A stretch of 39,002 nucleotides of DNA, taken from NCBI RefSeq assembly GCF_005435165.1, contig NZ_SGUC01000028.1:1-39002 (forward strand). Reading direction: 5' to 3'. Source of the stretch: Halorubrum sp. GN11_10-6_MGM. Lineage in GTDB: Archaea; Halobacteriota; Halobacteria; Halobacteriales; Haloferacaceae. This document shows positions 1 to 21,583 of the stretch, in pieces. The notes beneath the pieces are model-generated. The model saw nothing but the letters and a program-made list of their open reading frames with translations. It made no database searches and had not been told where the DNA came from. Each line of letters starts with the position of its first letter. Within the stretch, counting starts at the first letter, position 1. The position numbers and the translations under genes are program-made.

Positions 1-144
1 ACTGTTTCGGTAGCCGCCGCATTCAAGAAGTCGTCTACCGAAGCCACATTTTGCAGGGTTGCGCTGGTGTTGGACACACTTTCCGCACCCTGCCGCTTCG
101 TACGTGACGCTTTCTATGACACGCTCTATAGAAGAAATCAACTA
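1..144. other. left edge, upstream gene not identifiable
   Basis: Several frames are open here and none can be assigned. The frame of the next gene is open to the window edge. Forward frame 3 runs in from the left and stops at 105-107. One minus-strand frame with a CxxC pair is open to the edge. The stretch most likely holds the end of a neighbouring gene; for a Dnd locus dndC would be expected, but I cannot recognise it. Confidence 0.3.
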
Positions 145-2175
145 ATGCAGCTACAACAGATTGAGTTGTTAAACTTTCGTCAGTTCCGGCATGAATCGAT
201 TGAATTTGCTCAGTCCTCTGATAAAAATGTCACCATTGTACATGGTGCCAATGGTTCCGGTAAGTCAACACTACTCAATGCGTTTACTTGGCTGCTCTAT
301 GATGAGGTAGATTTCGACACGCGTCCTGATAGACTGGCGAGTGAGGGTGCAATGGCCGAAGCAACTGCAGGTGACTCTATCTGTGTTTGTGTGGAGCTAG
401 AATTTCTACACGATGGTACTGAATACGTCGCTAGACGGGAGATTGAGTATGAAAAACGGGCTGACGGCGATTTTGATGGTGAGCTTGTCGATGCCAATAT
501 GACAGTCGAGTACCGGGAGGGTGGCCAGTGGGAGGAGCGGCTGAATCCTGATAATACGCTTGACCAGATTATCCCGAAACGATTGAGCGGCTTGTTTTTC
601 TTTGACGGGGAGGATATAGACGAACTTGCAGGGATTGACAATCAAGATCGCATTCAGGAAGCAATTCAAAATATAATGGGCCTCACTATTCTTGAGCGCT
701 CTACCCGTCACTTGGATACTGTAGCGGACCGATTTGAAGATGAGGTGGAAAAGTATGCAAGTGATGAACTTTCAGATCTCATTTCTCAAAAGCGTGATAT
801 TGAAGAGGCTATTGATGATCTTCAACGAAAACTGCAAGATACGAAGCGATCTAAGGATCAAGTAGAACAAGAAATCTTTGATCTTGAGCAAAAACTTGAA
901 CGGTTAGATGAGAGCGCCGCTCTTCAGGAGCGAAGAAACGAATATCGAGGAGAACGCTCCGATATTGAAGAGAATATTGAGAAAATAAATGAACAGATCC
1001 GGAAAGAAGTCAGTGATCACGGCTTTATTCCCCTCTCAATGCCTCTTATTCGGGAGACTGCAGAAGAGCTAGATTCGATGCGGGAACGTGGACTCATCCC
1101 TTCTGAATTGAGTAATTCATTCATTGATTCTTTGCTTGAATCTGGGAGCTGTCTCTGCGGTCGTGAGTTGAAGCCAGGAACTGAACATTATCGCAAGGTG
1201 GAGGCGATGAAAGGTGAGGCAATTGGTGATGGCGTTGAACAAGGAGCACTTCGTATTGTTGGACATCTAAATCGAGTCTCCGAGGAGGAATCCGAATTCT
1301 TTGAAACCGTTGATGAACTTATCGAGGAGAGAAAAGAACTTCATGACGAGCTTGATGATTATGATGAGCTAATCGATGAGATAAGTTCGGAACTACAGAA
1401 GCTTGACCAGACAACTGAATCTGGTCAGACAATTGGCGAGTTAGAATCTGAACGTGAAGAAAAAGAAGGAGAGCGAGACACCCTCATATCAGATATTGGC
1501 GGTATTGAAGAGCGAATCGATCACAAGGAAGATGAGTTGGAGAGCCTCAAAGAGGAGATAGAGCAGCAACGCGATGAACATGAGGAGGCCCTCCTAGCCA
1601 AGCGTCGACAAAAAGCGACTGAACTTGTAGAAGAAGAGCTAGCATCTTCGTTCTCTGAGTTCAAAAATCAGGTCCGGGAGTGGGCAAATGACGAAATAAG
1701 AAAAACATTTGGTGAGATTGCAAGCAAAAACTTCACTGCTGAAATCACCGAAGAATTCAAGCTCAAAATCTGGCAAGAGGTCGGTGACGATCGTGTCGAA
1801 GTAGACAAATCAACTGGGGAACGGCAGATTGCTAGTCTTGCTTTTATTGGCAGCTTAGTCAAAATCGCCAGACAGAGATATGAATCTGAGAAAGACTCAG
1901 AGTACTTCACTGGCGGAATTTATCCGCTTGTGATGGATTCTCCTTTCGGCGCTCTTGACAAGCGTCATCGGCAAAAAGTTGGAGAGGTTATCCCCACTCT
2001 TGCAAACCAAGTAGTGGTCTTTGCGACCGATTCGCAGTGGGAAGGACCAGTTGAAGAGGAAATGTCCGACAGAATTGGTGAACAATTTTGGCTTGATTAC
2101 GATCCGGGAGAATCCCCCGGCGAGTACCCCCAAACGAAAGTTCGCTCAGAGAGTACATCCATGGAAGCTAACTAA
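145..2175 (+). CDS. dndD: DndD-like SMC-type ATPase
   Basis: A 676-aa SMC/RecN-like ATPase. Residues 34-42 form a Walker A (GANGSGKST). The FFFDGE motif near residue 150 is typical of DndD. A long charged coiled coil is broken in the middle by a CxC-G zinc-hook-like turn near residues 336-338. An ABC signature (STGERQ) and a Walker B ending in DSPFGALD lie near the C-terminus. Length and order match DndD, the ATPase of DNA phosphorothioation, where DndC, DndD and DndE act together in backbone sulfur insertion. I chose the ATG at 145 because homology to ATPase heads begins there; the frame stays open upstream to a GTG at 67. The next gene follows by 1 bp. No dndC, dndE or dndA is visible, so another SMC-type defence ATPase remains possible. 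Confidence 0.75.
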   Translation: MQLQQIELLNFRQFRHESIEFAQSSDKNVTIVHGANGSGKSTLLNAFTWLLYDEVDFDTRPDRLASEGAMAEATAGDSICVCVELEFLHDGTEYVARREIEYEKRADGDFDGELVDANMTVEYREGGQWEERLNPDNTLDQIIPKRLSGLFFFDGEDIDELAGIDNQDRIQEAIQNIMGLTILERSTRHLDTVADRFEDEVEKYASDELSDLISQKRDIEEAIDDLQRKLQDTKRSKDQVEQEIFDLEQKLERLDESAALQERRNEYRGERSDIEENIEKINEQIRKEVSDHGFIPLSMPLIRETAEELDSMRERGLIPSELSNSFIDSLLESGSCLCGRELKPGTEHYRKVEAMKGEAIGDGVEQGALRIVGHLNRVSEEESEFFETVDELIEERKELHDELDDYDELIDEISSELQKLDQTTESGQTIGELESEREEKEGERDTLISDIGGIEERIDHKEDELESLKEEIEQQRDEHEEALLAKRRQKATELVEEELASSFSEFKNQVREWANDEIRKTFGEIASKNFTAEITEEFKLKIWQEVGDDRVEVDKSTGERQIASLAFIGSLVKIARQRYESEKDSEYFTGGIYPLVMDSPFGALDKRHRQKVGEVIPTLANQVVVFATDSQWEGPVEEEMSDRIGEQFWLDYDPGESPGEYPQTKVRSESTSMEAN

Positions 2176-2176
2176 A

Positions 2177-2659
2177 ATGGGACGTATTATCAATTACAAG
2201 AAAACCGAGCTGTACGACACGCTCGTTGATGAGTACGAAGTCTTTGAGAATTACTATGACCTCCTCATCTTCCTTGCAGTTATCGGATATAAGGAAGATA
2301 ATCCCGTCCGCGAGGGATACCGGGGTAGTAGTTCGGAGGGTACAGCTGGTGAATCGGGGCTACATAATGTTTATTCGCAGGACCTATATCGTACGATCAT
2401 GGCTAGTCTAGCGTTTCAGGATACCGGAGACCCAGAGGCCCTCGTTGATGAACAGACACATATGAAAGTTCTCGCTCAGTATGCTGCTGGTGGACTAGAG
2501 ATCGCTGAAGACGAGTTTGGGGATATCGCTGGTGATCCTACAGATGCGGTAATCAATTATATAAAAATGTCTCAGAGCGAGGACACCGGAACTGAAGGAG
2601 AACTAGCCAAAATTGTTCAGAGTTTTGATGACGAGATGATGAACATCGAAGGGGAGTAA
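2177..2659 (+). CDS. small acidic Dnd-associated protein (dnd-associated protein 4 type)
   Basis: A 160-aa acidic protein starting 1 bp after the dndD-like stop, so translation is probably coupled. The N-terminal part (about residues 8-40) reads like a helical module with a hydrophobic LLIFLAVIGY segment, followed by acidic helices. Position and the N-terminal pattern resemble the small family annotated as Dnd system-associated protein 4. It does not show the typical DndE N-terminal pattern. Its role in the complex is unknown to me; association with the DndD-like ATPase is inferred from spacing. The ORF is open upstream to 2021 inside dndD, but the ATG at 2177 is the natural start. Confidence 0.5.
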   Translation: MGRIINYKKTELYDTLVDEYEVFENYYDLLIFLAVIGYKEDNPVREGYRGSSSEGTAGESGLHNVYSQDLYRTIMASLAFQDTGDPEALVDEQTHMKVLAQYAAGGLEIAEDEFGDIAGDPTDAVINYIKMSQSEDTGTEGELAKIVQSFDDEMMNIEGE

Positions 2660-2733: not shown

Positions 2734-5220
2734 ATGGAAGAGGAATCCAATACGCCACTATGTGGCAAAGAGATTTTTCTCTATCCGGGTGACCCGGATG
2801 GAACCGGGATGCTCGCATACGATACCACTCAATACAGAGACCGGTATGACGAGCTTCAGTTTGCAGATAGCACCCAGTTTATTAGTTCATTAGAGGAGAA
2901 TATTCGCCTCGAAAATCGCTCTCTTCTGCGCGTAGCAGAGGGAGAAAGGTTTGTCGTACCTGAATACCAGCGGAATTTTACTTGGGAAGAGGATCAACAT
3001 GAGGAACTTTGGAACACCATTTTATCTATTCAGGATCTCAAGCCGAAAGCGAGCGACCTTCCTGTTGATACTTACTTCGGTACTGTGTACGTCGCCCGCG
3101 ACGCCGACGGAGATGTATTCGAGATTATTGACGGTCAGCAGCGTCTGACCACTGTAGCAATTATCTTAAAGAATCTAAAACAACAGCTAGAAGGTCGATT
3201 CGACAGCATAGATGGGCAACTTCTCGAATATGCACAACATGTCTGTGACCGGCAACTAGAGGACCTATTATACCGTGCTGACGGCCCCGATATAACCCCC
3301 TTCATCACGTTGAATGACCACGATCAGCCGTTCTTTGATATTGTGTTTAAAGAGAAAGAGAACCGGATCAAACCAGTGAAAAATCTCTCGCAATATGATG
3401 GACGGAAGACAAACTCAATTACTGTGCAGTCGCTTCTCGATGAACTTGATATCCCAAAAGAAGCATACGAAGAGGATGAAGACTTTGAGGACACTGATAT
3501 GCTTGAATCGTACCGCTACTATGGAGATGCGCATAGGCGACTCATCAATGCCGACAAATTCTATAAGAAAAATATCAGACAGTTTATTGAGAAGGACATC
3601 TTTGAGACTCCGGAGACAAAAGTCCGAGCGTTGCTAAATCTGACTCACTATATTCTCCGTTCCCTTCGCGTTTCAGAATGCATATTTGAGACTAGTAATC
3701 AAGAGCTCCGAATTGAAGTCTTCCAATCGCTCAACGACCGCGGTGTTGAGTTATCGAATATGGACAAAATTCGGGCTCGTGTTGTGGGGCGATTCCAAGG
3801 AGAATCTGATAGTGATGTACAGATCGATCGCTGGGAAAGTGTTGTCAAGACGTTTGGAGGAGATTCCGATGATGTTGAAGACTTCCTTGCCCACTATCTT
3901 GCAGCGACAGAGAAAGAATTCTCTACGGTCACAGAAGCGAAAAACGAAATGCTCGAAGCATTTCGTCTCAAACAAATCGGTCATCACGATATCCAATCGA
4001 GACTGGCAAGCCCAGGGCAAGCTCGGGACTTCTTAGAAGAATTGGTGAATTATGCACAGCGATATCGTGAAATTGTCTCCGCCGATTTGACAGATGACGA
4101 TTTAGAGCTGAAAGACCCACAAAAAAGCGAGTGTGAGGAAATTCTCAAGCGGCTCAACAAACTTGGAACTAAACAGTGGCGACCGTTCGTGATGTACGTA
4201 TACCAAGCGGTGACTGAAGCCCCACAAAAAGATCAGTTTTTGGTCGATGTCCTGAAAACAGTAGAGGATATCTCGTTCCGGTTTTCTATATCGGACCTTG
4301 TCGGCACAGTCGTTGATGACACATATCCGAATTCCTGCCAAGAATTTCGGGAGCTTGAGCAGACTGGGAATCAGTTCGATTCCGAGGAGGTATCCGAGAT
4401 TCTCATTGAGAATATCGATAATTCTGCACGCCAAATGTTCGGCGAATCCTTTATCGATCGTCTTGTTAGTAAAGATGGTTGGAACAACAACAAGACAAAA
4501 CAATTGTACCTGAAGGTCGCGGATGAAGACTTCAGACAGAGAAACGAGGTTGGGATCACGAACTCTCACCTCAGTTCAGACTCTAGTGAAGTACATATTG
4601 AACACGTACTCCCGGTATCATACATTTTGGCTAAAAAGGATCATCCGTATGCGTGGTTAGAACACTTCTTCCATAATAACGGCGATAACAAGATTCGTAC
4701 TCAGATCGATTATCTTCAGTCACGTGACGCGCACGAGCTATCACCTGGTGACGACGGTTATGATGAGATCGAGCGAGTCGTTAATGGAATTGAGGAACGC
4801 TTCGTACGTGATATTGGAAACATGATTTTGCTTGATGAAGAGGTTAACCGACCGATTCAGAATCGTCTCTTTGCAGTCAAGCTCAAGGAGTACCACAAAA
4901 AGCATGACAAGGACATGGAGAATATCATCAACCAATACTTTGGTACTGATGGAGCGGTTGACGAATCGAAGCTTCAGCGCTTACTAACGCTTGATATGCC
5001 CGATGATGAGACGAGATCGACTTCCCCATCACTCATCCAAGATTTCAATGAGTGGTGGACGTATGAACGCCTCGTACAACGGAAATCGCAGCTAGTATCT
5101 GAGATTTTGCAATCACTTACATTCTCTACCCGACCAGACGAGTTCGAACCGTTCGTAGATGATCTCGAAAATATAGTAGAGGAAGATGTTCAGAAGCGCT
5201 TAGCAGTTCTAACTGTCTAA
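2734..5220 (+). CDS. DUF262/DUF1524 (GmrSD/SspE-like) nuclease
   Basis: An 828-aa protein with a DUF262 domain near the N-terminus: VPEYQRNFTW at 75-84 and the family hallmark DGQQR at 133-137, a ParB/Srx-like NTP-binding motif. A second conserved DUF262 segment (LNDRGVELSNMDKIRA) lies near residue 335. The C-terminal third carries a DUF1524 HNH-like nuclease signature, HIEHVLP at 621-627, followed by an IGNMILL...N...K segment. This architecture is that of GmrSD-type modification-dependent endonucleases and of SspE, which senses phosphorothioate DNA and damages phage DNA. It lies 74 bp after the DndD-associated gene in the same direction, so it is the likely restriction partner of that module. 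Whether it recognises sulfur or another modification cannot be told from sequence. Confidence 0.8.
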   Translation: MEEESNTPLCGKEIFLYPGDPDGTGMLAYDTTQYRDRYDELQFADSTQFISSLEENIRLENRSLLRVAEGERFVVPEYQRNFTWEEDQHEELWNTILSIQDLKPKASDLPVDTYFGTVYVARDADGDVFEIIDGQQRLTTVAIILKNLKQQLEGRFDSIDGQLLEYAQHVCDRQLEDLLYRADGPDITPFITLNDHDQPFFDIVFKEKENRIKPVKNLSQYDGRKTNSITVQSLLDELDIPKEAYEEDEDFEDTDMLESYRYYGDAHRRLINADKFYKKNIRQFIEKDIFETPETKVRALLNLTHYILRSLRVSECIFETSNQELRIEVFQSLNDRGVELSNMDKIRARVVGRFQGESDSDVQIDRWESVVKTFGGDSDDVEDFLAHYLAATEKEFSTVTEAKNEMLEAFRLKQIGHHDIQSRLASPGQARDFLEELVNYAQRYREIVSADLTDDDLELKDPQKSECEEILKRLNKLGTKQWRPFVMYVYQAVTEAPQKDQFLVDVLKTVEDISFRFSISDLVGTVVDDTYPNSCQEFRELEQTGNQFDSEEVSEILIENIDNSARQMFGESFIDRLVSKDGWNNNKTKQLYLKVADEDFRQRNEVGITNSHLSSDSSEVHIEHVLPVSYILAKKDHPYAWLEHFFHNNGDNKIRTQIDYLQSRDAHELSPGDDGYDEIERVVNGIEERFVRDIGNMILLDEEVNRPIQNRLFAVKLKEYHKKHDKDMENIINQYFGTDGAVDESKLQRLLTLDMPDDETRSTSPSLIQDFNEWWTYERLVQRKSQLVSEILQSLTFSTRPDEFEPFVDDLENIVEEDVQKRLAVLTV

Positions 5221-6469: not shown

Positions 6470-7129
6470 TCAGACAGGTTGCTTCACAAATTCTGTTACT
6501 ACATAGAACGGAACCGTGTCAATCAGCGCCACAAGTAGCTTCACGATGTACTGCCCAGCGACGATTGAGACGAGTGCCCAGCCCCACGTTGGTTCCCCAC
6601 CGAGGCCGAGTGCCGGGAAGATAGCGAAGCCGAGCGTAATAAACACGATCGTGTCCACGCCCTGACTAACTGCAGTGGAACCGCAGTTCCGAAGCCAGCG
6701 ATGGCGACCAGCAGTGCGACTCTTCAGATTGGCGAAGAGTCGGACATCGAGATGTTGGGCGACTGCAAGCGCGACGACGGAAGCGAGGATGATCGATGCG
6801 GAGCCGCCAAGCGTCGACACGAACGCTTCTTGGCCACCGTAGAACGGGGCAGAGGGCATCCAAATGGCGAGGAAGACGAGCGCATACGCGATGACGAGCG
6901 TGACAACCGTTCCGTTGACCACGGTCGCGGCGTACTCTTTCCCGTGATACTCGACGAGCAGGTCTGAAGCGAGATAGGCCACGCCGAATGCGACGAACCC
7001 AGCAGGGACGGCGACGCCGCCGAGCCCGGGGAGCTCAATCCACGTGAGTTTCGCTGCGAGGACGTTTGCGAGAACAATCGACCCAGCGAACACGGCGGTG
7101 AAGATCGCACGAGTATCTTCAGTCTCCAT
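6470..7129 (-). CDS. YhhQ-family queuosine/archaeosine precursor transporter
   Basis: A 219-aa integral membrane protein with about six hydrophobic segments. It has the family's features: a short polar start, an early LANVLAAK segment, a YLASDLLVEYHGKEYA loop, a conserved SQGVDT(I)VF segment near residue 155, and a GQYIVKLLVALIDTVPFYV ending. This is the VUT_1/YhhQ family that imports 7-deazaguanine precursors such as preQ0 or preQ1. It sits divergently beside queD-queE-queC with 183 bp between start codons, which supports a role in feeding the same pathway. GAGGGTGA lies just before the ATG as a possible ribosome site. The stop is next to a long empty AT-rich stretch. Confidence 0.85.
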   Translation of the reverse strand: METEDTRAIFTAVFAGSIVLANVLAAKLTWIELPGLGGVAVPAGFVAFGVAYLASDLLVEYHGKEYAATVVNGTVVTLVIAYALVFLAIWMPSAPFYGGQEAFVSTLGGSASIILASVVALAVAQHLDVRLFANLKSRTAGRHRWLRNCGSTAVSQGVDTIVFITLGFAIFPALGLGGEPTWGWALVSIVAGQYIVKLLVALIDTVPFYVVTEFVKQPV

Positions 7130-7283
7130 CAGCTGTCACCCTCTTGTATGGGCGTACAGTTCCCTGTGGTTCGGTGCTGCGGGTCGAACTGTGGAGATAC
7201 CGATGCGCAACGAGTGCGCAAATAGACGTTGAATGAGTGTGAGTCGGGCTGCTGTTCCATCGATGAAGTAACGAAACTCAATA

Positions 7284-7305
7284 TTTATATATTCCCCGAA
7301 TATTC
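7284..7305 (+). promoter_or_regulatory. queD TATA box and palindrome
   Basis: TTTATATA at 7284-7291 is centred about 25 nt before the queD ATG at 7313, the spacing of a haloarchaeal leaderless promoter. The perfect palindrome GAATATTC at 7298-7305 lies between the TATA box and the start and could be an operator; this is inference. Confidence 0.55.
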
Positions 7306-7312
7306 TTCGAGT

Positions 7313-7774
7313 ATGTCCCGAAGTATATCGAGAGATGAATCCGAGTCAGAGGTCCTTCGTGAGGCCGGCCAACGAACCCTCCACATCGGAGCCGACAACC
7401 CCATCCGCATTAGCTCGGGCCACCGTATCCTCCATCACGACGGGAAGTGCTCGCGGCCACATGGCCACAACTACGAAATCACCGTCGAGGTGACCGGTGA
7501 AATCACCGAGGAAGGCTGGGTTGTTGACAAAGGTGACGTCGCAGACGTCATCGACGCCTGGGATCACCGTTTCCTCGTCGAGGAGGGGGACCCGCTCGTC
7601 GATGCGTTCGAAGCGTCCGGCGACGGTGACGCCCTTGTCGTCCTCGATCACCCACCGACGGCGGAGGTGATGAGCGTGCTGCTCGAACAACGAATGCTCG
7701 ATGCGTTCCCGGACACTGTCTCAGACGTCTCGGTGTCGGTGAGCGAAACCGGCGAGCTCTGTGCAAGTTACTGA
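7313..7774 (+). CDS. queD: QueD, 6-carboxy-5,6,7,8-tetrahydropterin synthase
   Basis: A 153-aa member of the 6-pyruvoyl-tetrahydropterin synthase/QueD family. It converts 7,8-dihydroneopterin triphosphate to 6-carboxytetrahydropterin, the second step of preQ0 synthesis. Visible zinc ligands are H37 in SSGHRI and H50 and H52 in the RPHGHNY motif; C46 (GKCSRPHGH) is the likely catalytic cysteine. A WDHRFL segment and a PTAEV segment follow in family order. The start at 7313 fits the TATA box at 7284; an in-frame upstream ATG at 7229 would put the TATA box inside the gene. Its TGA overlaps the queE start (TGATG), so the two are translationally coupled. Confidence 0.92.
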   Translation: MSRSISRDESESEVLREAGQRTLHIGADNPIRISSGHRILHHDGKCSRPHGHNYEITVEVTGEITEEGWVVDKGDVADVIDAWDHRFLVEEGDPLVDAFEASGDGDALVVLDHPPTAEVMSVLLEQRMLDAFPDTVSDVSVSVSETGELCASY

Positions 7775-8550
7775 TGCCGGTCGCAAGTGATGTGGAAGAA
7801 CCCACAACGGACGCTGACGCGGCCGGTGAGGGCCTCCCGATCAACGAGGTGTTCTACTCGTTACAGGGAGAGGGAACGCTCGCAGGCGTCCCCTCTGTCT
7901 TCGTACGGACCTCCGGGTGTAACCTGCGGTGTTGGTTCTGTGATTCGTACCATACGTCGTGGGAACCGACTGGGGCGTGGCGCGACGTCGACACGATCGT
8001 GGAGGAAGTGCGGTCACACGACCAGGCGGACCACGTCGTACTCACGGGCGGCGAGCCGCTCATCCACGGGGAGTCCGTCGAACTCTTGGAACGACTCGAC
8101 GCAAAGGGGTATCACACGACGGTAGAAACGAACGGGACCATCTACCGGGACGCACCAATCGACCTGGCGAGTATCAGTCCGAAACTGGCGAGCAGCACGC
8201 CGACGCCGGACCGGGACCCGAAAGGCGAGGGCGAGTGGGAAGAGAAACACGAGCAGAACCGGATCGATATGGATGCGCTCTCCCGGATGGTCGATACGTA
8301 CGACACGCAACTCAAGTTCGTCGTGACTGACGAGACAGACCTCCCGGAGATTATGGACCTCGTCGATCGTGTGCGGGCGGCGACGGCGACGACCGTGGCG
8401 GACGATGACGTGTTGTTGATGCCGGAAGGGATGACGCGTGAGCAACTCGACGGAACGCGAAGCCAAGTGGCAGAGTTAGCGATGGAGTACGGCTACCGGT
8501 ACACACCTCGGCTCCACGTGGACCTATGGAACGACGCGCCGGGGACATGA
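7774..8550 (+). CDS. queE: QueE, 7-carboxy-7-deazaguanine synthase
   Basis: A 258-aa radical SAM enzyme that rearranges 6-carboxytetrahydropterin to 7-carboxy-7-deazaguanine. It has the family's N-terminal EVFYSLQGEGTLAG segment and the cluster-binding CNLRCWFC (C49, C53, C56; CX3CX2C), followed by VVLTGGEPL and a TVETNGT motif. An insertion with many charged residues around 145-160 is common in haloarchaeal QueE proteins. Coupled to queD by a 1-bp overlap. The first about 20 residues are an acidic extension. Confidence 0.93.
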   Translation: MPVASDVEEPTTDADAAGEGLPINEVFYSLQGEGTLAGVPSVFVRTSGCNLRCWFCDSYHTSWEPTGAWRDVDTIVEEVRSHDQADHVVLTGGEPLIHGESVELLERLDAKGYHTTVETNGTIYRDAPIDLASISPKLASSTPTPDRDPKGEGEWEEKHEQNRIDMDALSRMVDTYDTQLKFVVTDETDLPEIMDLVDRVRAATATTVADDDVLLMPEGMTREQLDGTRSQVAELAMEYGYRYTPRLHVDLWNDAPGT

Positions 8551-8617
8551 ACGTCGCCGCAATGCGGTGTGGACAGAGCGAACTGAGCAACAATCGATTC
8601 GATACAACGGAGAATAC

Positions 8618-9307
8618 ATGAGCAACAAAAGCGCGGTGATTCTGGTGTCTGGCGGGATGGATAGTGCGACAGCGGTGTACGAGGCGATGGAACAGGGATA
8701 CGAGCCGTACTTCCTCCACACCTCGTACGGGCAGCGCACCGAAGACAAAGAGTACGAGTGCGCACAGGCGCTTGCTGACGAGGTCGATGCGGCGGACTTC
8801 CTCCACATCGAAACCGGGCACCTCGCACAGATTGGGGCATCGAGCCTGACGGACGAAGAGATGGACGTCGCTGACGCAGACTTGGAGAGCGACGAGATCC
8901 CGACGTCGTACGTCCCCTTCCGTAACGCGAATCTGCTGTCGATGGCGACATCGTACGCAGAGGCGACTGAGTCGGAGGCGCTGTTCATCGGCGCGCACTC
9001 GGAGGACTTCTCCGGATATCCGGACTGTCGGCCCACCTTTTTCGACGCCTTTCAGCAGGTGATCGACGTCGGAACGAAACCGGAGACGGAAATCGAGCTG
9101 AAAGCGCCGTTCGTCGAGTGGTCGAAAACAGACATCGCTGAGCGTGGATTAGAACTTGGTGTCCCGTACGACATCACGTGGTCGTGTTACCGGGACGAGG
9201 AACCGGCGTGTGGGACGTGTGATGCGTGTGCGTTCCGGCTTGAGGCATTCCGAAATGCTGGGTCACGTGACCCAATTGCGTACGCTGAGCGACCTGATTT
9301 CTCGTAA
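8618..9307 (+). CDS. queC: QueC, 7-cyano-7-deazaguanine (preQ0) synthase
   Basis: A 229-aa PP-loop ATPase that converts 7-carboxy-7-deazaguanine to preQ0 with ATP and ammonia. The N-terminus has the pyrophosphatase loop SGGMDS (11-16). The C-terminus has the zinc site CYRDEEPACGTCDAC. I chose the ATG at 8618: GGAG is 5 nt upstream and the PP-loop begins directly after. A GTG at 8567 would add 17 residues foreign to the family. It lacks any fused amidotransferase domain, so it is ordinary QueC. preQ0 serves archaeosine in tRNA and, in some systems, DNA modification. The last codons contain a 14-bp perfect palindrome (9260-9273) and are duplicated at 9776-9840. Confidence 0.93.
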   Translation: MSNKSAVILVSGGMDSATAVYEAMEQGYEPYFLHTSYGQRTEDKEYECAQALADEVDAADFLHIETGHLAQIGASSLTDEEMDVADADLESDEIPTSYVPFRNANLLSMATSYAEATESEALFIGAHSEDFSGYPDCRPTFFDAFQQVIDVGTKPETEIELKAPFVEWSKTDIAERGLELGVPYDITWSCYRDEEPACGTCDACAFRLEAFRNAGSRDPIAYAERPDFS

Positions 9308-10725: not shown

Positions 10726-11226
10726 TTATTTAATTCCGACAAATCGCTGAAAAGCCTTCGAAAAGGAGAGTTCACCCAGCGGGTAGTTGAGGAGATCCAC
10801 CGATTCCATCAGGGATGCGTGCCGGTCCCGGCGCTTCTCTTGAGCATCTAAATCGGGAGTACTATGACCTTCTAAATCAAACCGCTCAATCTGTTTTAGA
10901 CGAGATAAGTCTGTCAAGATATTTTCTAGTAGCCGCCTCTCTCGTTGATTGAGTAGCATTGTCGTCTCGCTATACGATTCGAGAAGTTCCTCGTGGATTT
11001 GCCATACGAAGGAATCCTCAATCATACACTGCTCAAAAATAATTTGTTGGTTCGTTCGCTCTAGCCATCCGATGAGGTTGTTCAGCTGATCGACCTTTTC
11101 TTTTCGATTCCTATAATAAACGAGGAACTGTCCGCTCAAGACACCAGCAACGGCACCGAAGAACACTACCGAAAGCTCAAACGCGAGAGATTGGAGTACC
11201 ATGGCAGATAGTTCGATACGTCTCAT
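10726..11226 (-). CDS. membrane-anchored protein next to helicase
   Basis: A 166-aa protein with one clear hydrophobic segment at about residues 9-34, then a basic YYRNRKEK stop-transfer sequence and a long helical, probably coiled, cytoplasmic part. It resembles single-span partner proteins in defence loci but I do not recognise the family. It begins 25 bp after the helicase stop on the same strand, so the two are probably cotranscribed. A role in anchoring the helicase or in phage exclusion is only inference. Confidence 0.55.
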   Translation of the reverse strand: MRRIELSAMVLQSLAFELSVVFFGAVAGVLSGQFLVYYRNRKEKVDQLNNLIGWLERTNQQIIFEQCMIEDSFVWQIHEELLESYSETTMLLNQRERRLLENILTDLSRLKQIERFDLEGHSTPDLDAQEKRRDRHASLMESVDLLNYPLGELSFSKAFQRFVGIK

Positions 11227-11251: not shown

Positions 11252-12673
11252 CTATCCGGCAAGCAGGTCATATCTACGCTTTACTTCTTGAAGTGACCCA
11301 GTTGACGTCGGAACGCCATCAACATCGGCGTCAGGATGGTTCCGAGCGGTTTCCGCAAACATTGAGACTCGTTCGAGTTCCTTCCGGATGAGTGTCCGCT
11401 CAATTTCATACTGATCATCGGACAGCATTTCTGGGTGTCTTTGGGTATCTGGTATTGTGATGAAATCATGAATTACGGCATATTTTTTGCCTTCGTATTT
11501 TCGAAGTATCCTTCCTCTTCGTTGGACGTATTGTCGTGGATTCGATGTACTCGCTAGGATGTATGCCGTCCGTGTAGCAGGAATATCAACGCCTTCGTCT
11601 AGACATCTAATAGAAGTTAGAAGGTCAATTTCTCCGTCATCAAACCGTGTCAACAGCTCTTTTCGTTCTTGTTGATTTTCTCGTGCGGTAAAGCGCTCAA
11701 CAGACAAGTTACACTCATTTCGAATTCTCTCTGTTGTCAGGTCTACGTGACGCTGTAATTGGCCATCAGCCTCCAATTTGCCATCACTACAGTAGACAAG
11801 CGTGTGTTTGGTATCTATCTCAGAATTCAATAAGTCAATAAGCAAGAATAGCTTCTCACGAGCGGTGCCAATTAATCGAGCTCTCTTGAAAAGAGCTTGC
11901 TGTAGAGCGGGATTCTGTTCAAGATTCAAACTCCCTTCGTTGTCATTCGATTTCCCTGCAAGTCGACCAATCTTTGTGGTTAGACGCATGTACTCTTCCA
12001 TCTCTTCGTCCTGCAATTCGACTATATGAGGTATGTAGTAGTACTCACATAGTGCACCGACTTCGATAGCTTTCTCAAGTCCATATTCAAAAACGGTTCC
12101 TCCAAAATACTCATCTAATTCTTTCGTCCCTGCTTCGTCATACCATCTTTCTGGCGTTGCCGAAAGACCAAGTCGGAGGTCAAACTGATCACTAAGTGCC
12201 TCCTGTGTCTGAGCGGCCCCCATGTGGTGTACTTCATCTGCAATCAGCATTGAATTTCCATTAGCTCTTTGAATGGTTTTTCTCGCGGATTCTCCTGACA
12301 AGGTTCGGTGTGTTGTAACCACTACGCAGGTGTCACGCATTCCATTGTTGAATTCTAGCAGTTCACGTTCAAGTCGAGGTTGCCAGTTGCGTCGTGATTC
12401 AAAGGCAAGAACAGGGGTGGCACCGAAATCATCAAGGTCAGATTTCCACTGATTAACCAGATGTTGATATGGTACTGCGACGACGAGCAGGAATTTTTCA
12501 TCCACGGACTGATCCACACGCGTTGCCGCAAGGAGGGCTGTGACCGTTTTACCAGTCCCTGTTGCCATTTCTAGTATTCCTTTTCCTCCGGCAGACATCC
12601 ACTCTTGTATTGCTTCTTGTTGATACGGACGGGCTTCTATCCAATCAGGAACATGGAGACCCTCATGAGACAT
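11252..12673 (-). CDS. SF2 DEAD/DEAH-type helicase (defence-associated)
   Basis: A 473-aa superfamily 2 helicase of the XPB/type III restriction-like group. It shows RPYQ at 15-18, Walker A TGTGKT at 38-43, DEVH at 146-149, motif III SATP at 171-174, motif V-like CLDEGVDIP near 357-365 and motif VI QRRGR at 384-388. No nuclease domain is visible. I chose the ATG at 12673 because TATATATA lies 27-34 nt upstream; a TTG at 12733 would extend the protein by 20 residues. It is divergent from the transglycosylase operon with 164 bp between starts. Bacterial Dpd clusters also carry a helicase (DpdE), so it may translocate on or discriminate unmodified DNA. Confidence 0.85.
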   Translation of the reverse strand: MSHEGLHVPDWIEARPYQQEAIQEWMSAGGKGILEMATGTGKTVTALLAATRVDQSVDEKFLLVVAVPYQHLVNQWKSDLDDFGATPVLAFESRRNWQPRLERELLEFNNGMRDTCVVVTTHRTLSGESARKTIQRANGNSMLIADEVHHMGAAQTQEALSDQFDLRLGLSATPERWYDEAGTKELDEYFGGTVFEYGLEKAIEVGALCEYYYIPHIVELQDEEMEEYMRLTTKIGRLAGKSNDNEGSLNLEQNPALQQALFKRARLIGTAREKLFLLIDLLNSEIDTKHTLVYCSDGKLEADGQLQRHVDLTTERIRNECNLSVERFTARENQQERKELLTRFDDGEIDLLTSIRCLDEGVDIPATRTAYILASTSNPRQYVQRRGRILRKYEGKKYAVIHDFITIPDTQRHPEMLSDDQYEIERTLIRKELERVSMFAETARNHPDADVDGVPTSTGSLQEVKRRYDLLAG

Positions 12674-12699
12674 CTTATCTATCTCAAAATGGCCCGCTG

Positions 12700-12707
12700 A
12701 TATATAT
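12700..12707 (-). promoter_or_regulatory. TATA box of helicase operon
   Basis: TATATATA lies 27-34 nt before the helicase ATG at 12673, the spacing of a leaderless haloarchaeal promoter. It decides the start over the upstream TTG. Confidence 0.6.
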
Positions 12708-12837
12708 CTAAGCCGTGATGTTAAATTCGCCAAAATTAGGGTTTCGAAAGCATGCTAGCAAGAGTTCGAGTTGTTTTGGTCAAGAGAAGATTTGGTAACG
12801 AGTACTCTTTTACCTCCACGGGATCGATACGGTTGCA

Positions 12838-13272
12838 ATGACAACGCTTCTGGTACAATCCTGTTCAGACACAAAAAATTCAGTCTCCACGCCTACTCCG
12901 GCCCTTGATGTGTATGATGGATATTTTTATAAAATTATCAAGAAGGCTATAAGAGAAGGGGAGTTTCGATCTGATATCGATATTCGAATTCTGTCTGCGA
13001 AGCATGGTCTTCTCAAACCTGATGAGAAGATCCGCTCCTATGACCGCCAGATGACTCAATCACGAGCTGCCGACCTTCGAGAGTCCGTCACAATGAATCT
13101 ACAAGAACTGGTACAACAAGAGGAATACAACCGAATCGTCCTTAATATGGCCCGGGAGTATCGCAGTTCAATCGGGGAAATTCATGATTATCGGGGGCAA
13201 GTGAGTGAAATCTCTGGGAGCGGCATTGGCGAAAAGGGTGAGAAACTCAAGAGATTCATCCGGGGAGACTGA
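12838..13272 (+). CDS. DUF6884 protein, possible 7-deazaguanine-modifying enzyme
   Basis: A 144-aa protein with DUF6884 hallmarks: an N-terminal LVQSCSDTK (C9, K13), an A-x-D-x-Y segment (ALDVYDGYFYK), then the conserved ILSAKHGLLKPDE and a following SYDRQM. DUF6884 genes are often found beside TGT/DpdA-like genes. The CS-x-TK signature parallels that in the ArcS-like domain of the gene at 16129, so a related reaction on a 7-deazaguanine base or its intermediate is possible; this is inference. It is the first gene of the operon and ends 4 bp before the transglycosylase start. Confidence 0.7.
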   Translation: MTTLLVQSCSDTKNSVSTPTPALDVYDGYFYKIIKKAIREGEFRSDIDIRILSAKHGLLKPDEKIRSYDRQMTQSRAADLRESVTMNLQELVQQEEYNRIVLNMAREYRSSIGEIHDYRGQVSEISGSGIGEKGEKLKRFIRGD

Positions 13273-13276
13273 CTGA

Positions 13277-14518
13277 ATGGGATTCCAACAAAAACAACAT
13301 GGTAATAATGGATTTGAGATTGCTAATCAAGCAGGAGCAGCACGCACTGGGACACTCCAAGTTGGAGACACAGAATTAGAAACGCCAAATCTCTTTCCTG
13401 TAGTGAATTTCTACGCAGGAGGGACCTCATCAAGCCTGTACGGGGGAGGCATACATCGCACAATGAAGGAGTTCATGAACGGGGATGAAGTCATAAACGG
13501 CGGTGACTACAGCGAATACTTTGATGGCGTGATGACGTCTGTCGCTTCTTTAACTGACTACGGGATAACTAAAGAGCGATATGAAGAGTACATTGATACT
13601 CCAATTAAGGAGAGAGACCTCTTTGATTTTGACGGTGTTTTATTTGTTGATTCAGGAGGTTTCAAATTTCTCGGAGACAAGACTTTAGATGGTAGTGATT
13701 TTGAAGTCGATGTCGATCAGAGGGCAATTATAGATATTCAACGTAAGCTTGGTGCTGACCTAGTTTTGAATCTCGACCGTCCAATCGAGCCTGATGATGA
13801 TTACGAGACACGGGTTCAAAAGGCACGCATGACTGCACAGAATGTCGATCAATTCCTTGAATTAACTAACAGACAGAAACAGACACGATACCTGACTCTT
13901 CATGGGTACAATTACTCTATGCTGAATACGTTCCTCACCGAGATCGAGAAAGTAATTGGAAAAGACCGTGTACACCGTGAATTTGACGGGGTAGCTCTCG
14001 GAAGCTTGGTTCCGCTTAAGGATAACAAGGGTAAGTTGATCACTGCGGTGAGCGACTGCAGAGAGGTCCTCAACGACTGGGGCTTTGATGATCTGCCATT
14101 ACACATCCTTGGTATTTCTTCAAGCGCAATTCCATTACTTGCAGCAGTTGGTGCGGATACATTCGACTCATCTTCTTATCTTCATGCTGCAATTAACGGG
14201 AAGTATCATACGTCGTTGTACAATACAGAGCCGCTTGATGACGTAGATTTCTCAAACTGTGATTGCCCAGTCTGCTCTGACGACAAACTTGTGAATTGGA
14301 TGAAGGGTGATGCCGAGTACCAGAAAGACAAGCTTGGAGCAGTATCGATGCATAACCTCATAATACAGAAAGAGGAGATCCGTCGTGTTAGGGAAGCAAT
14401 CAACAAGTCGGGAACCGACGGTTTGATTGAATATTTCGAACAATCGCTCAGCCGTCACAAATCAATGCAGCAGCATGCACACCGAGTTGTGAATGATTCT
14501 CTTGGAGGATACTTCTAA
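13277..14518 (+). CDS. TGT/DpdA-like guanine transglycosylase
   Basis: A 413-aa tRNA-guanine-transglycosylase fold protein. Catalytic features are present: the PVVNF segment near 41-45, DSGGF at 125-129, base-binding LDRP with D167, GSLVPL at 242-247 and the nucleophile segment DTFDSSS with D297. The zinc site C328-x-C330-x2-C333 with H359 has the same C-to-H spacing (26) as bacterial TGT. It has no C-terminal PUA domain, which archaeal tRNA enzymes (arcTGT) normally carry, so DNA is the more likely substrate, as for DpdA. It sits between a DUF6884 gene and a GHKL ATPase with 4- and 2-bp gaps. It would exchange guanine for preQ0 or a derivative. tRNA as substrate cannot be excluded. Confidence 0.82.
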   Translation: MGFQQKQHGNNGFEIANQAGAARTGTLQVGDTELETPNLFPVVNFYAGGTSSSLYGGGIHRTMKEFMNGDEVINGGDYSEYFDGVMTSVASLTDYGITKERYEEYIDTPIKERDLFDFDGVLFVDSGGFKFLGDKTLDGSDFEVDVDQRAIIDIQRKLGADLVLNLDRPIEPDDDYETRVQKARMTAQNVDQFLELTNRQKQTRYLTLHGYNYSMLNTFLTEIEKVIGKDRVHREFDGVALGSLVPLKDNKGKLITAVSDCREVLNDWGFDDLPLHILGISSSAIPLLAAVGADTFDSSSYLHAAINGKYHTSLYNTEPLDDVDFSNCDCPVCSDDKLVNWMKGDAEYQKDKLGAVSMHNLIIQKEEIRRVREAINKSGTDGLIEYFEQSLSRHKSMQQHAHRVVNDSLGGYF

Positions 14519-14520
14519 CA

Positions 14521-16071
14521 ATGTCAACAACAAAAACACCACAAGTAAATGAAGTAAACGAGTTCCTAGAAATTGCGAGTGACTTCGAAGATCCGCTCGA
14601 AGTAATCCGCGAATCATTGTCTAATAGCTACGATGCAGGGGCGACTGAGGTCGAGATTACGATTAGAGACAGGCCGATCGGGTCCGAGATCGTGATCGAA
14701 GATAATGGTGAGGGGATGGACTATGCTGACCTAGAATCCTTCTTCGATTTGGGCAATTCGACGAAACGAGACCCGTCCTCTGATGCCATCGGCTACAAAG
14801 GACATGGGACAAAGATTTTCTATAAAAGCGAAGAGGTACTCGTTAACACTTCCAAAGAAGGAACGAATCTCCGTGCGCAAATGGAACAGCCCTGGGAAAA
14901 ACTCAACAACCGAGTAATGCCTGAATACGAAGTTAGGGAACGCTCGGTAAAGGAGGGTAATAGCGGGACTCACATCCGCATTACCGGATTCAAATCCGGA
15001 CGTGGATTCTCTCCTTCCTCACTCACATATAACAAAATTGAACACTATCTGAAATGGAAGACACTTGCAGGGTCCACTGCTCACTATTTCACAGATGACT
15101 ATCACGAGATGGATGTATATATCACATTGGGCGACGAGATCGACGACACTCAGGGAACGCTCAAATTAAATAATAAACTTGAATTTCCCGATGAACAGAT
15201 TGAGCCCGGAGAAGGGAATTTCCCGGAATCAAGGATGTGTAAGCACTATCCACCTCGTGAGCTGACGGTGGAGACTGATGACGGAGATACGGCAACCATC
15301 GAAATAGTAGGGATGATTGGTGGGAAAGATGCTCGCAACGAACTCCCAACATACGGGAAACATTCAGCGCAATTCGGAATTTGGCTTGCTAAGGATTATA
15401 TCAAAGTAGAACGTGTCAACGAAGTTATCTCACATGACAATGAATTCCTCCATTTCTTTTTCGTGGCAAACTGCCAAGATATTGAGCTCTCTGCAAACCG
15501 TGAGAAAATCCGGAACAAATCAAGCGCTATCTATCAAGCAATTAAAGAAGAATTGAGCCACTATCTTTCGAAAATAGCATCTGATCCTTGGTTCAAAGAT
15601 TACCTCAACCAGCGACGAAAGGCCAAACTCTCACGTCGGGCAAAATCTCAACAGTCTTCTGTTGAAGACCGTGAGAAGCAGATTCACGATCGTGAACGGT
15701 TTGTTCCCTCCAATGATGCGGAGGTAGTTCTTGGTCTTGAAAGATCTAACCGGAACGGAGTTCTCCCTGAAATTGTCGTTGAAGACTATGACCCCGATGT
15801 GGAGGTCAACGCATTGGTCAGACAGGATGGCTCACTCTACGCGAGTTCGATCCATCACAAACTCACAGATCATTTTGGAGCAGACAAACCCTTAGAGGCT
15901 GTTGATAAAATCATCTGCTGGTCGTATGGCGACCCTGATGAGTTGAGTGAACTTGAGCGACATGGGTACCACGGGGGAGACATCGCATTTGACCTCAATG
16001 CAGGTCGAATCGAGTATCAGAACGGTAGAAAACATAATATCCATATCGTTTCTGTCGAACAGCGATTTTAG
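14521..16071 (+). CDS. GHKL (Bergerat-fold) ATPase
   Basis: A 516-aa protein with an N-terminal GHKL ATPase domain as in MutL, Hsp90 and MORC proteins. Motifs: N box ESLSNSYDAG at 31-40 (E31, N35), G1 DNGEGMD at 61-67, and G2 GYKGHGTKIF at 91-100. A transducer-like segment with SANREKIRNKSS follows near 325-335. The C-terminal third is charged and not recognised. It starts 2 bp after the transglycosylase stop, so it belongs to the same transcript. ATP-driven dimer closure on DNA is what the family does; a role in modification targeting or in restriction is inference. Confidence 0.8.
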   Translation: MSTTKTPQVNEVNEFLEIASDFEDPLEVIRESLSNSYDAGATEVEITIRDRPIGSEIVIEDNGEGMDYADLESFFDLGNSTKRDPSSDAIGYKGHGTKIFYKSEEVLVNTSKEGTNLRAQMEQPWEKLNNRVMPEYEVRERSVKEGNSGTHIRITGFKSGRGFSPSSLTYNKIEHYLKWKTLAGSTAHYFTDDYHEMDVYITLGDEIDDTQGTLKLNNKLEFPDEQIEPGEGNFPESRMCKHYPPRELTVETDDGDTATIEIVGMIGGKDARNELPTYGKHSAQFGIWLAKDYIKVERVNEVISHDNEFLHFFFVANCQDIELSANREKIRNKSSAIYQAIKEELSHYLSKIASDPWFKDYLNQRRKAKLSRRAKSQQSSVEDREKQIHDRERFVPSNDAEVVLGLERSNRNGVLPEIVVEDYDPDVEVNALVRQDGSLYASSIHHKLTDHFGADKPLEAVDKIICWSYGDPDELSELERHGYHGGDIAFDLNAGRIEYQNGRKHNIHIVSVEQRF

Positions 16072-16075
16072 TAGA

Positions 16076-16091
16076 CGGCTACAGGTAGCCG
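16076..16091 (+). terminator. hairpin between GHKL and TGT-ArcS genes
   Basis: A 6-bp perfect stem, CGGCTA/TAGCCG, with loop CAGG directly follows the GHKL stop codon. TTTATCAC at 16093-16100 lies 29-36 nt before the next ATG and may be a TATA-like element, so the fusion gene could have its own promoter as well as read-through. Confidence 0.4.
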
Positions 16092-16128
16092 ACTTTATCA
16101 CATTCCGTCTTCAATCAATGAGCAGAAA

Positions 16129-18150
16129 ATGGCATCGTTCGAGACTACATCTTCTGACGAGACCGGGAATGCCCGAACCGGCACTCTCCACACTCCTCAC
16201 GGTGATGTAGAAACGCCAGCATTCTTCCCCGTTGTCAATTTCATAGGCGGACCGGATGAGAAATCAGGGGGGATATGGAGCCGACTTCGCAATCATCTAT
16301 TCGGCGAACCGGATTTTCAGGGAGCGATGTTTCAAGCGATGAGCTTCCTCGATTTTAACATCTCTCCTGATTCTCTCAAAAACTGGCGATCAAAGTCTCT
16401 TCATGAGCATTTCAGTGGCCATGAGCCAGTTAAGCCATATCACGACCAGCCGGAGGACTTTACCAAGCCGTTGTTCGTTGACTCTGGCGGATTCAAACTG
16501 CTGAATTCGGATACATTCGGAGATCGCCCTGAGGAGGGTGGTTCAGATAATGACTGGTCGATATACACCAATCCGGAGAGCATCCTTGAACTGCAACTTG
16601 ACTACGGTGCGGACATACTCGCTACACTAGATTACCCCATCCCACCGAATCTCAACGAAGAGGAGACGACCCAGCGAATGGAAGACAGTATTGATAGTGC
16701 CATCCGCTGTCTTGAGCTTCTTGAGGAAAAAGAAGACTCACCGGCAGTCTACGTGGCCATACATGGCCACGACTACGAGACGATCAACTGGTATGTTGGT
16801 ACGTTTCTCGACCGGGCAGGAGACCTTGATGACGCATTCGAGGGGTTCGCAGTAGGATCGCTGGTTCCACTCCGCACTAACGTAGAAACACTCGTTGATA
16901 TTGTACAAGGTGCAAAGGACGCAATTCCTGAAGATCGAGTAGACGACCTCGGATTACACCTATTCGGCATCAGCGGTAAGTTCACTGCACTTCTTGCTCT
17001 CCTAGGTGCAGACTCGTTCGATTCGTCAAGTTACATTCGTGCTGCCCAATTCAAGAAATTCATTAACCGCGAAATCGGCGTTGACGACGGTACGACTGTT
17101 CGTCACCCGGATTCGGATAGTCACGATCTCGGTGACTTTGGTGTCGACATAGAACGGACATCTGAAGCGCGCTGGGCAGCAGATTGGTCAAAGTTCTCTG
17201 CGGATCAGATCCCCGAAGACTGGGATTGCCAGTGTTCAGCTTGCGAAGCGCTCCGCGAGATTGGGTATGAGCAGATGCAGTCAACTCTCTTCGACAGCAA
17301 ATCGTATGACCAAAGCGGAGATCATATGAAGAGTGACTTCTACGCGCTCATGGGGTATCACAACTTCCACGTTTACCAAGACGAGATGGACTATGTCCGT
17401 GGTCTTATCCAACAGGGGGATGGTGAACTCCTTGAATACGTCGCTAAAATGGCGCGCAATGACGTAGGCGGAATTAGACAAGCACTCAAACGGGCCACCG
17501 TCCGGGACAGAGGTCTTGCTACGGAACTTAGAGAGCGTGGATACGACAGGCTTGTCGCCGAACGAGCTGAAGGAGAACAGGAACGGCTCAATGTCGACCT
17601 TCCGGTTGAAAGCCACGAGATCTCTCTTGAGTACACGCCTGAGGACTTCAATGTGCTAGAGCGTGACGACTACTCTCCGGGTGACGAACGGGTACTTTTG
17701 ATCGTACCCTGTAGCCAGACCAAGCCATACTCGAATTCTCGTACTCATCGAGTAGTTGCTGATGCAATCGCGGAGTGGAACGACGATGTACACAAAGTAA
17801 CTGTATCTGGGATGTATGGACCAGTACCTGAAGAATTTGAGAATATTCCACCGATCAAATCATACGAATACGTTCTAACCGATGTCGAAACAGACCGTCA
17901 GAATCTCATCCAAAATCGGCTCGTTGGCTATCTAAATCGTTTTGGAGACGACTTTGACGTAATTGTTGGCTACGCCACGAGTAAGACATATCGTGAAGTC
18001 ATCAAGCGATCTCTAGAAGAGTATAAACAGGGTGTAGTTCTGCCTCGTGACCCCGAAATGCGAGCGTTGACAGAACACTTCCGTGCAACGAATCTTCAAG
18101 AATTGGCAGACTATCTTGAGGAAGAATTAGCACCACAAACTCAGAATTAG
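16129..18150 (+). CDS. TGT-like transglycosylase fused to ArcS-like archaeosine-forming domain
   Basis: A 673-aa two-part enzyme. Residues about 1-420 form a TGT fold with DSGGF (118-122), LDYP with D168, GSLVPL (243-248), a nucleophile segment DSFDSSS with D298, and a C367-x-C369-x2-C372 zinc site with a histidine near 411-414. Residues about 520-665 carry the exact ArcS signature PC-x3-KPY-x2-S-x2-H (P527, C528, K532, Y534, S537, H540). ArcS adds lysine to preQ0 in tRNA on the way to archaeosine. True ArcS has a degenerate TGT part and a PUA domain; here the TGT part looks catalytically complete and no PUA is seen. I infer insertion of preQ0 into DNA and its conversion in place. An alternative is a tRNA-acting paralogue. 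Confidence 0.8.
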   Translation: MASFETTSSDETGNARTGTLHTPHGDVETPAFFPVVNFIGGPDEKSGGIWSRLRNHLFGEPDFQGAMFQAMSFLDFNISPDSLKNWRSKSLHEHFSGHEPVKPYHDQPEDFTKPLFVDSGGFKLLNSDTFGDRPEEGGSDNDWSIYTNPESILELQLDYGADILATLDYPIPPNLNEEETTQRMEDSIDSAIRCLELLEEKEDSPAVYVAIHGHDYETINWYVGTFLDRAGDLDDAFEGFAVGSLVPLRTNVETLVDIVQGAKDAIPEDRVDDLGLHLFGISGKFTALLALLGADSFDSSSYIRAAQFKKFINREIGVDDGTTVRHPDSDSHDLGDFGVDIERTSEARWAADWSKFSADQIPEDWDCQCSACEALREIGYEQMQSTLFDSKSYDQSGDHMKSDFYALMGYHNFHVYQDEMDYVRGLIQQGDGELLEYVAKMARNDVGGIRQALKRATVRDRGLATELRERGYDRLVAERAEGEQERLNVDLPVESHEISLEYTPEDFNVLERDDYSPGDERVLLIVPCSQTKPYSNSRTHRVVADAIAEWNDDVHKVTVSGMYGPVPEEFENIPPIKSYEYVLTDVETDRQNLIQNRLVGYLNRFGDDFDVIVGYATSKTYREVIKRSLEEYKQGVVLPRDPEMRALTEHFRATNLQELADYLEEELAPQTQN

Positions 18151-18427: not shown

Positions 18428-19249
18428 ATGAAGGCCCTCCCGAAGTCGCAGATTCTCCGTTTTACTGAGAAAGCGATCCATCTGGCCCGCCGAGCGGTTT
18501 CTCGGTACTCCTCGAAATTCTCTAAACACCGCTATACACTTCCGCAGCATGTTGTTCTGCTGTGTCTCAAAGTTCGGAAGAACACGACCTATCGTGGTCT
18601 GCTTGATGAACTAATTGAGATGCCACGCATACGTCGTGTTCTCGGGCTAACCGAGCTTCCTACTGCTTCAACGCTCTGTAAGGCGTTCAACCGGCTTGAT
18701 ATGGCTGTGTGGCGTATCATTTTGACTCTCTCAGCGACGTTACTTCCGACAAGCGGAGTTGTTGGTGTTGATGCGTCAGGGTTCGACCGTAGTCACGCTT
18801 CGAAACACTACACGAAACGTGCTGAACTCACGATTCAGCAGCTCAAGGTGACGTTGCTGGTCGATGCGAAGGTAAACGCAATTCTCGATCTACACGTGAC
18901 GACGACTCGAAAACACGATAGCCAGATCGCTCCGTCGTTGATCAAGCGCAACCCCGAGTGTATCGATATTCTCCTCGGAGACAAAGGCTACGACGATCAG
19001 AAAATCAGACGGCTCGCCCGGCAACACGAGGTTCGGCCACTGATTAAGCATCGTGAGTTCACATCACTGCACAAGGCATGGAACGCACGCTTAGACGCTG
19101 ATCTCTACGGACAACGGAGTCAATCCGAGACTGTGAACTCAACACTCAAACGAAAGTATGGTGCGTTTGTCCGGTCACGGCGGTGGTGGAAGCAGTTCCG
19201 TGAACTCACCATCGCCTGTCTCATTCATAATGTAGATCGATCACTCTGA
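18428..19249 (+). CDS. IS5-family transposase
   Basis: A 273-aa DDE transposase. The N-terminal helical part is basic. GVVGVDASGF near 113-122 holds the first catalytic Asp; LLGDKGYDDQKIR near 178-190 holds the second Asp with the DxGY-like turn. A C-terminal NSTLKRKYG segment near 230-240, after SQSETV, holds the Glu (E-x6-K type). Length matches autonomous haloarchaeal IS5 elements. It is complete and without frameshift, so it could also act on the related transposase-less elements in this window. Confidence 0.9.
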   Translation: MKALPKSQILRFTEKAIHLARRAVSRYSSKFSKHRYTLPQHVVLLCLKVRKNTTYRGLLDELIEMPRIRRVLGLTELPTASTLCKAFNRLDMAVWRIILTLSATLLPTSGVVGVDASGFDRSHASKHYTKRAELTIQQLKVTLLVDAKVNAILDLHVTTTRKHDSQIAPSLIKRNPECIDILLGDKGYDDQKIRRLARQHEVRPLIKHREFTSLHKAWNARLDADLYGQRSQSETVNSTLKRKYGAFVRSRRWWKQFRELTIACLIHNVDRSL

Positions 19250-21295: not shown

Positions 21296-21583
21296 GTGAC
21301 CGAGGAGAAAATTCGGGTAAATGTTGAATCTATTGACCGCGCTGTGAGGAACGCGGACACACCTCCCTCCCGTTTTATGATCGTTGATCACATATCACAT
21401 AGTATGGTGATGACGGACGAACTCCCCGAGATGTTCGACGATGACGCCGACGAACCAACCCAAGAAGAGACTGCCGCGGCAATCGCCGACGCCGCGCTCC
21501 TCGAAGTGGAGGAACGCGACGCTGATGACGACACGATCGTACAAGCAATCGACGAGCTCCGTGAGGAAGCCGGACTGAAATAA
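21296..21583 (+). CDS. small acidic protein before integrase
   Basis: A 95-aa very acidic protein, rich in Asp and Glu in its C-terminal half, not recognised. The GTG at 21296 fits the TATA box about 29 nt upstream; an ATG at 21404 would give a 59-aa protein. The stop overlaps the integrase start (TAATG), so both are coexpressed. It may assist or regulate the recombinase. Confidence 0.5.
   Translation: MTEEKIRVNVESIDRAVRNADTPPSRFMIVDHISHSMVMTDELPEMFDDDADEPTQEETAAAIADAALLEVEERDADDDTIVQAIDELREEAGLK

Follow-up and report, generated by a model that had tools for sequence, protein, structure and literature searches.

A candidate Dpd-like DNA 7-deazaguanine modification-restriction system with two transglycosylases in haloarchaea

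We analysed a window of 39,002 nucleotides (nt) from Halorubrum sp. GN11_10-6_MGM, one whole contig (NZ_SGUC01000028.1) of a 3.32 Mb assembly, using six-frame reading together with Pfam, NCBIfam and PADLOC scans, and focused on a candidate DNA modification operon on its plus strand (12838-18150). The operon encodes a DUF6884 protein of 144 amino acids (aa) (12838..13272; Pfam DUF6884, 2.5e-14), a transglycosylase of 413 aa, TGT1 (13277..14518; Pfam TGT, 3.7e-28), a MORC/MutL/Hsp90-like GHKL (Bergerat-fold) ATPase of 516 aa (14521..16071; HATPase_c_3, 2.5e-17), and a second transglycosylase of 673 aa, TGT2 (16129..18150; TGT, 5.9e-31), with an ArcS-type DUF5591 domain at residues 513-637 (1.9e-19). 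The gaps between these genes are 4, 2 and 57 nt, and an SF2 helicase gene diverges from them across 104 bp. Consistently with a preliminary description of this DNA, Pfam scans, coordinates and motif all recovered this arrangement, including a TGT without PUA domain; the start given there (12673) lies inside the helicase gene, and the core begins at 12838. Compared with the nearest relative (G152), the four core genes and the helicase gene had dN/dS values of 0.05-0.07, indicating that they are real genes under selection.

To define the conserved part of the locus, we surveyed 391 haloarchaeal genomes, counting TGT1 at an identity of at least 47%, and fetched 20 kb around each TGT1 locus (41 relatives' loci plus the window). 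TGT1 was present in 42 of the 391 genomes, and the GHKL ATPase, searched for on its own, was found in exactly the same 42, an obligate pairing. DUF6884, TGT1 and GHKL genes were adjacent and in the same order in 41/41 relatives' loci, as in the window. TGT2 was found in 38 genomes, 37 of them shared with TGT1 and one other (Fisher 3e-45), and its placement varied: upstream or downstream of the core, on either strand, sometimes farther away. The recurrence expected by the preliminary description thus held for the three-gene unit and, in 37 of 42 genomes, for TGT2, but not for the helicase or for a membrane protein (10726-11226) that it had listed with it; both are outside the conserved core. 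Neither this membrane protein nor an open reading frame at 10227-10589 had a tblastn match in the other fetched loci, including the near-identical (97%) relative locus L036, and both were rejected as parts of the system. In the five TGT1 genomes without TGT2 (L058-L061, L063), DUF6884 is preceded by a protein of 310 aa that matches no Pfam family and may replace the ArcS-type domain of TGT2; GmrSD follows the core in 5/5, and four of these loci have an extra DUF6884-type gene. One genome (G236, locus L077) has TGT2 and a DpdJ homologue with no match to TGT1 or GHKL, possibly a minimal form of the system.

Clustering of the genes around the core yielded helicases, a PLD protein and an NTPase, whose profiles matched the bacterial restriction proteins DpdJ (2e-43), DpdK (2e-18), DpdH (1e-12) and DpdG (8e-8). 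Their order, F'-x-G-H-y-J-K, matches the bacterial E-F-G-H-I-J-K, the family at the DpdI position (c7) having no profile match. In L048, H, y, J, K, DUF6884, TGT1, GHKL and TGT2 all share one orientation; J and K lie upstream of DUF6884-TGT1-GHKL on the same strand in L048, L060 and L122, an annotated plasmid. On a Haladaptatus plasmid they directly precede this unit. The Dpd homologues thus share an operon with the core in some genomes. At an E-value of at most 1e-90, a threshold that covers this DpdJ subfamily only, DpdJ homologues occurred in 29/391 genomes, all 29 of which carry TGT1 or TGT2 (Fisher 1e-33), and in none of the other 348 haloarchaeal genomes; weaker helicase relatives of DpdJ exist on other haloarchaeal plasmids. 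Among the 42 TGT1 genomes 28 have the DpdJ homologue, in 27 of the 28 on the same contig as the core and within ~35 kb. This exclusive co-occurrence, with DpdG, H, J and K homologues in bacterial order, is the strongest argument for DNA as the target. Judged from sequence, the core is most probably a system that modifies host DNA with 7-deazaguanine and restricts unmarked DNA, functioning in the same way as Dpd of bacteria.

Both transglycosylases have intact active sites. The catalytic residues D125, D167 and D297 of TGT1 and its zinc ligands C328, C330, C333 and H359 were invariant in 19 homologues. In a joint alignment with TGT1, TGT2 (21 sequences) keeps the arcTGT-aligned aspartates and the zinc ligands, apart from one sequence with R at the third cysteine; this genome's ArcS has a gap at the position aligned to TGT1 D167. 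The ArcS signature PC-X3-KPY-X2-S-X2-H is present in TGT2 as PCSQTKPYSNSRTH, with C528, S529, K532, P533, Y534 and S537 invariant in the 21 sequences and P527 and H540 kept in at least 90%, and the C-terminal domain aligned to the ArcS core (hhalign 98.4%, 6.6e-15); the identity of this domain rests on sequence, as the fold search barely covered it. Both enzymes scored below the cut-offs of the DpdA model NF041059 (200 bits; TGT1 32, TGT2 18) and of the arcTGT model TIGR00432 (350 bits; TGT1 139, TGT2 96), and TGT2 below that of the ArcS model NF040592 (440 bits; 86). In profile comparison TGT1 and TGT2 are each other's closest match (4e-64), and in the TGT tree each forms its own group (99/98 and 94/99, respectively), separate from arcTGT, ArcS and DpdA, with long deep branches that leave the order of the families unsettled. 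TGT1 is a candidate enzyme for inserting preQ0 into DNA.

Since the nearest solved structure to TGT1 and TGT2 is arcTGT (TGT2 to 1j2b, Z 34.6), both might instead act on RNA, be it tRNA of the host or of a virus or some other RNA; the operon would then serve in RNA-based defence or make archaeosine by another route. Archaeal ArcS does act on tRNA (PMC11298593), and although scans found no PUA match in TGT1 or TGT2, a title cited in PMC11298593 reports PUA as dispensable for archaeosine formation by arcTGT, so that absence of PUA alone is no evidence against a tRNA target. However, 43/43 genomes have in addition an arcTGT that scores above the cut-off of its family, and this genome also has its own ArcS; tRNA archaeosine is thus provided for. 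Together with the exclusive association with homologues of DNA restriction proteins, this makes an RNA target improbable.

The genes queD, queE and queC for preQ0 synthesis were located at 7229..9307 on the plus strand, 3.5 kb from the core as previously described (QueC TIGR00364, 1.2e-54; queD and queE were assigned by reading and by their recurrence beside queC). Upstream, on the minus strand, lies a Vut_1/YhhQ-type putative queuosine-precursor transporter (6470..7129; PF02592, 1.6e-39). In 24/42 genomes the distance between queC and the core is at most 50 kb, and seven genomes have two queC, one copy near the core. In bacteria, too, queD, queC and queE are frequent members of Dpd islands (PMC11888242).

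The DUF6884 protein matched DpdC (PADLOC, 1.8e-6) and PDC-M57A (1.6e-9) and aligned to the DpdC-type domains of DpdA fusion proteins from a cyanobacterial and a Haloferax plasmid (hhalign 96.9%, 1.5e-10). It is shorter than bacterial DpdC and is a candidate for the step that converts the nitrile of preQ0 in DNA. The cyanobacterial DpdA (L132:753-2849) carries its DpdC-type, DUF6884-like domain at the N-terminus. A different plasmid TGT set of haloarchaea (L124:11740-14809, L125:8763-15307) comprises a 344-aa TGT, a hypothetical protein and a BREX-type ATP-binding protein near QueD, with QueE also near in L124; the Haloferax plasmid with this set also has a bacterial-type DpdA, with the DUF6884-like domain at its C-terminus. 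Separately, a stretch of a Paenibacillus plasmid (L129:1-22011) holds two dpdJ copies, dpdF and dpdK, with no dpdA annotated in it.

The ATP-binding motifs of the GHKL ATPase are invariant, and both sequence and predicted fold (mean predicted local distance difference test 80) place it with MORC, MutL and Hsp90, MORC2 with DNA being among the fold matches. MORC/MutL-type GHKL ATPases act on DNA, and the protein is a candidate DNA clamp or strand opener in place of the DndB/ParB-like ATPase DpdB, for which one bacterial query found no match in 43 genomes, in a search run without a positive control. The same properties would fit enzymes directed at foreign DNA or at viral DNA during replication, incorporating or excising bases, so that modification would be an attack rather than self-protection; variable effector modules and the lack of a DpdJ homologue in some genomes point the same way. 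Yet preQ0 genes lie close to the core, and in bacterial Dpd the mark is set on host DNA and restriction is aimed at unmodified DNA (PMC11888242, PMC12839542), and we regard such an attack as very unlikely.

In a Dpd-like scheme, QueD, QueE and QueC would make preQ0, and TGT1, TGT2 or both together would swap guanine for it in host DNA, the GHKL ATPase driving or directing the exchange in the role of the ATPase DpdB. The DUF6884 protein and the ArcS-type domain of TGT2 would then turn the nitrile of DNA-bound preQ0 into an amide, a lysine adduct or an amidine; the DpdC product is an amide (PMC12839542) and that of ArcS a lysine adduct (PMC11298593). Effectors would attack DNA lacking the mark: in most relatives the DpdG, H, J and K homologues, and here probably the helicase with its partner genes described below, a GmrSD nuclease, or both. 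We consider it possible, though doubtful, that a single DNA-acting transglycosylase-ArcS protein gives cellular archaeal DNA an ArcS-type base (deoxyarchaeosine or a preQ0-lysine adduct), with Dpd-, Pbe- and GmrSD-type effectors interchangeable behind the same mark. The preliminary description proposed that haloarchaea have a Dpd-like system with other partners, which is supported by the DpdG/H/J/K homologues in bacterial order, the recurrent queDEC genes, the DpdC-like DUF6884 protein and the separate arcTGT.

The effector candidates of this genome lie at lower coordinates than the core. The SF2 helicase of 493 aa (11252..12733, minus strand) is PbeA-like (PADLOC PbeA, 5.9e-165) and scored 558 bits against TIGR04095, below the cut-off of 600; these best matches led us to reject it as DpdE, DpdF or DpdJ. 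It aligns to PbeA residues 245-668 only (PADLOC), the N-terminal ~240 aa of PbeA being missing, and since PbeA has an HKD nuclease fused in its N-terminal part (PMC10853773), the missing part should hold that nuclease. Farther off on the plus strand are a CxC-type coiled-coil ABC ATPase, DndD/PbeC-like, with the motif SGSCLCGREL (67..2175; TIGR03185, 1.1e-46, under cut-off), whose true start is probably the inner ATG (MQLQQIEL) where the relative L138 begins; a DndE-like protein (DNA phosphorothioation-associated protein 4, PbeD-like; 2021..2659; TIGR04062, 7.5e-13, under cut-off), probably starting at an inner ATG (MGRIINYKK); and a GmrSD-type nuclease (DUF262 protein), another candidate effector (2734..5220; GmrSD_N 2.1e-29, GmrSD_C 6.4e-7), whose family occurs in 11 relatives' core loci. 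The helicase is encoded divergently beside the core, as the preliminary description says, but belongs to a variable module, of which it is a candidate restriction component.

Whether this Pbe-like set is part of the system bears on the effector arm only. It could also be an independent defence sharing the island, leaving the core alone or with GmrSD only, which is compatible with a Dpd-like core and which we rate just short of an even chance. Pbe-like genes are near the core in 4/42 genomes only, two of which (G326, G002) also have a DpdJ homologue, and a range of partners has been described for CxC systems (PMC10853773). Against independence, the helicase is divergently paired with the core both in the window and in G152, two genomes without a DpdJ homologue, and DndC was absent from this genome and from the three others with the same module, so that the module is not tied to phosphorothioation in them; related DndDE systems have methylases instead of phosphorothioation (PMC10853773). 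We infer that the Pbe-like module reads the deazaguanine mark.

Several findings weigh against a Dpd-like function of the core as a whole. TGT1 and TGT2 are outside the DpdA family by the NCBIfam model, and no DpdA gene was found in this genome; the part of the GHKL ATPase in marking is a prediction; and this genome has no full-length queC other than the one next to the core, which implies that this copy also serves tRNA. Moreover, 14 TGT1 genomes have no member of the DpdJ subfamily, this one and G152 among those in which no DpdJ homologue was found, so that the restriction arm here is guessed from proximity, and Pbe-like genes are themselves rarely found near the core.

The island has a GC content of ~45-50%, versus 66-74% in the chromosomal part past 30 kb. 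A DDE transposase (18428-19249) directly follows TGT2, and a 95% identical copy follows TGT2 in L041. The window also holds a tyrosine integrase (21583-22263) and a 49-bp fragment (29621-29669, minus strand) 98% identical to tRNA-Leu positions 28-75, inverted beside an intact tRNA-Leu (29857-29942, plus strand); fragment and integrase are possibly the trace of an integrated element. Viral contigs contained no relatives of TGT1 or TGT2 and phages none of TGT1; with a single weak match (23%) for TGT2, we rejected a viral origin of the two enzymes.

If the Dpd-like function is correct, DNA deazaguanine marking extends to archaeal hosts, with a core of two transglycosylases and a MORC-like ATPase in 42/391 genomes. 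Such a core would be relevant to the question of how HVTV-1 and other archaeal viruses carry 7-deazaguanine without a DpdA of their own, and could be used to ask if restriction modules are exchangeable behind a single DNA mark. Several key papers aside, the core is not described in the literature we found, which covers bacterial Dpd islands and viral deazaguanine: the Dpd island survey covers bacteria (PMC11888242), and for archaeal hosts the one mention found is a suggested DpdA in Haloarcula vallismortis (PMC6884629).

Among known systems, the bacterial Dpd island (DpdA-K; e.g. Enterobacter cloacae, Agrobacterium vitis plasmids) shares with this locus the extra transglycosylase, a DUF6884/DpdC-type protein and nearby preQ0 genes, and with the relatives of the core the DpdG, H, J and K homologues in the same order. 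It differs in that here TGT1 is not DpdA, a GHKL ATPase is present and no recognised DpdB, the second transglycosylase is fused to an ArcS domain, and DpdJ is missing from this genome; the system would thus work like Dpd, sharing its restriction genes in relatives, yet fail the DpdA model. The archaeosine tRNA pathway (arcTGT TgtA, ArcS) has in common with TGT1 and TGT2 the TGT fold and catalytic residues, and with TGT2 the ArcS signature, but the two enzymes have no PUA match, score below its cut-offs and come on top of the arcTGT and ArcS that the genome already has; TGT2, unlike ArcS, keeps all the catalytic residues checked. The PbeABCD/CxC ABC-ATPase system of archaea (PMC6459918, PMC10853773) likewise has an SF2 helicase, a CxC coiled-coil ABC ATPase and a DndE-like protein, whereas here the helicase is without the N-terminal part of PbeA, the genome has no DndC and the set adjoins a deazaguanine core. 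BREX-Related Capture systems with TGT (PMC12839542) differ from this core, in which no PglZ, BrxC or HerA/FtsK was seen, the ATPase is of GHKL type and DUF6884 is present; they share with it a TGT in a multi-gene archaeal or bacterial defence locus and an ATPase proposed instead of DpdB.

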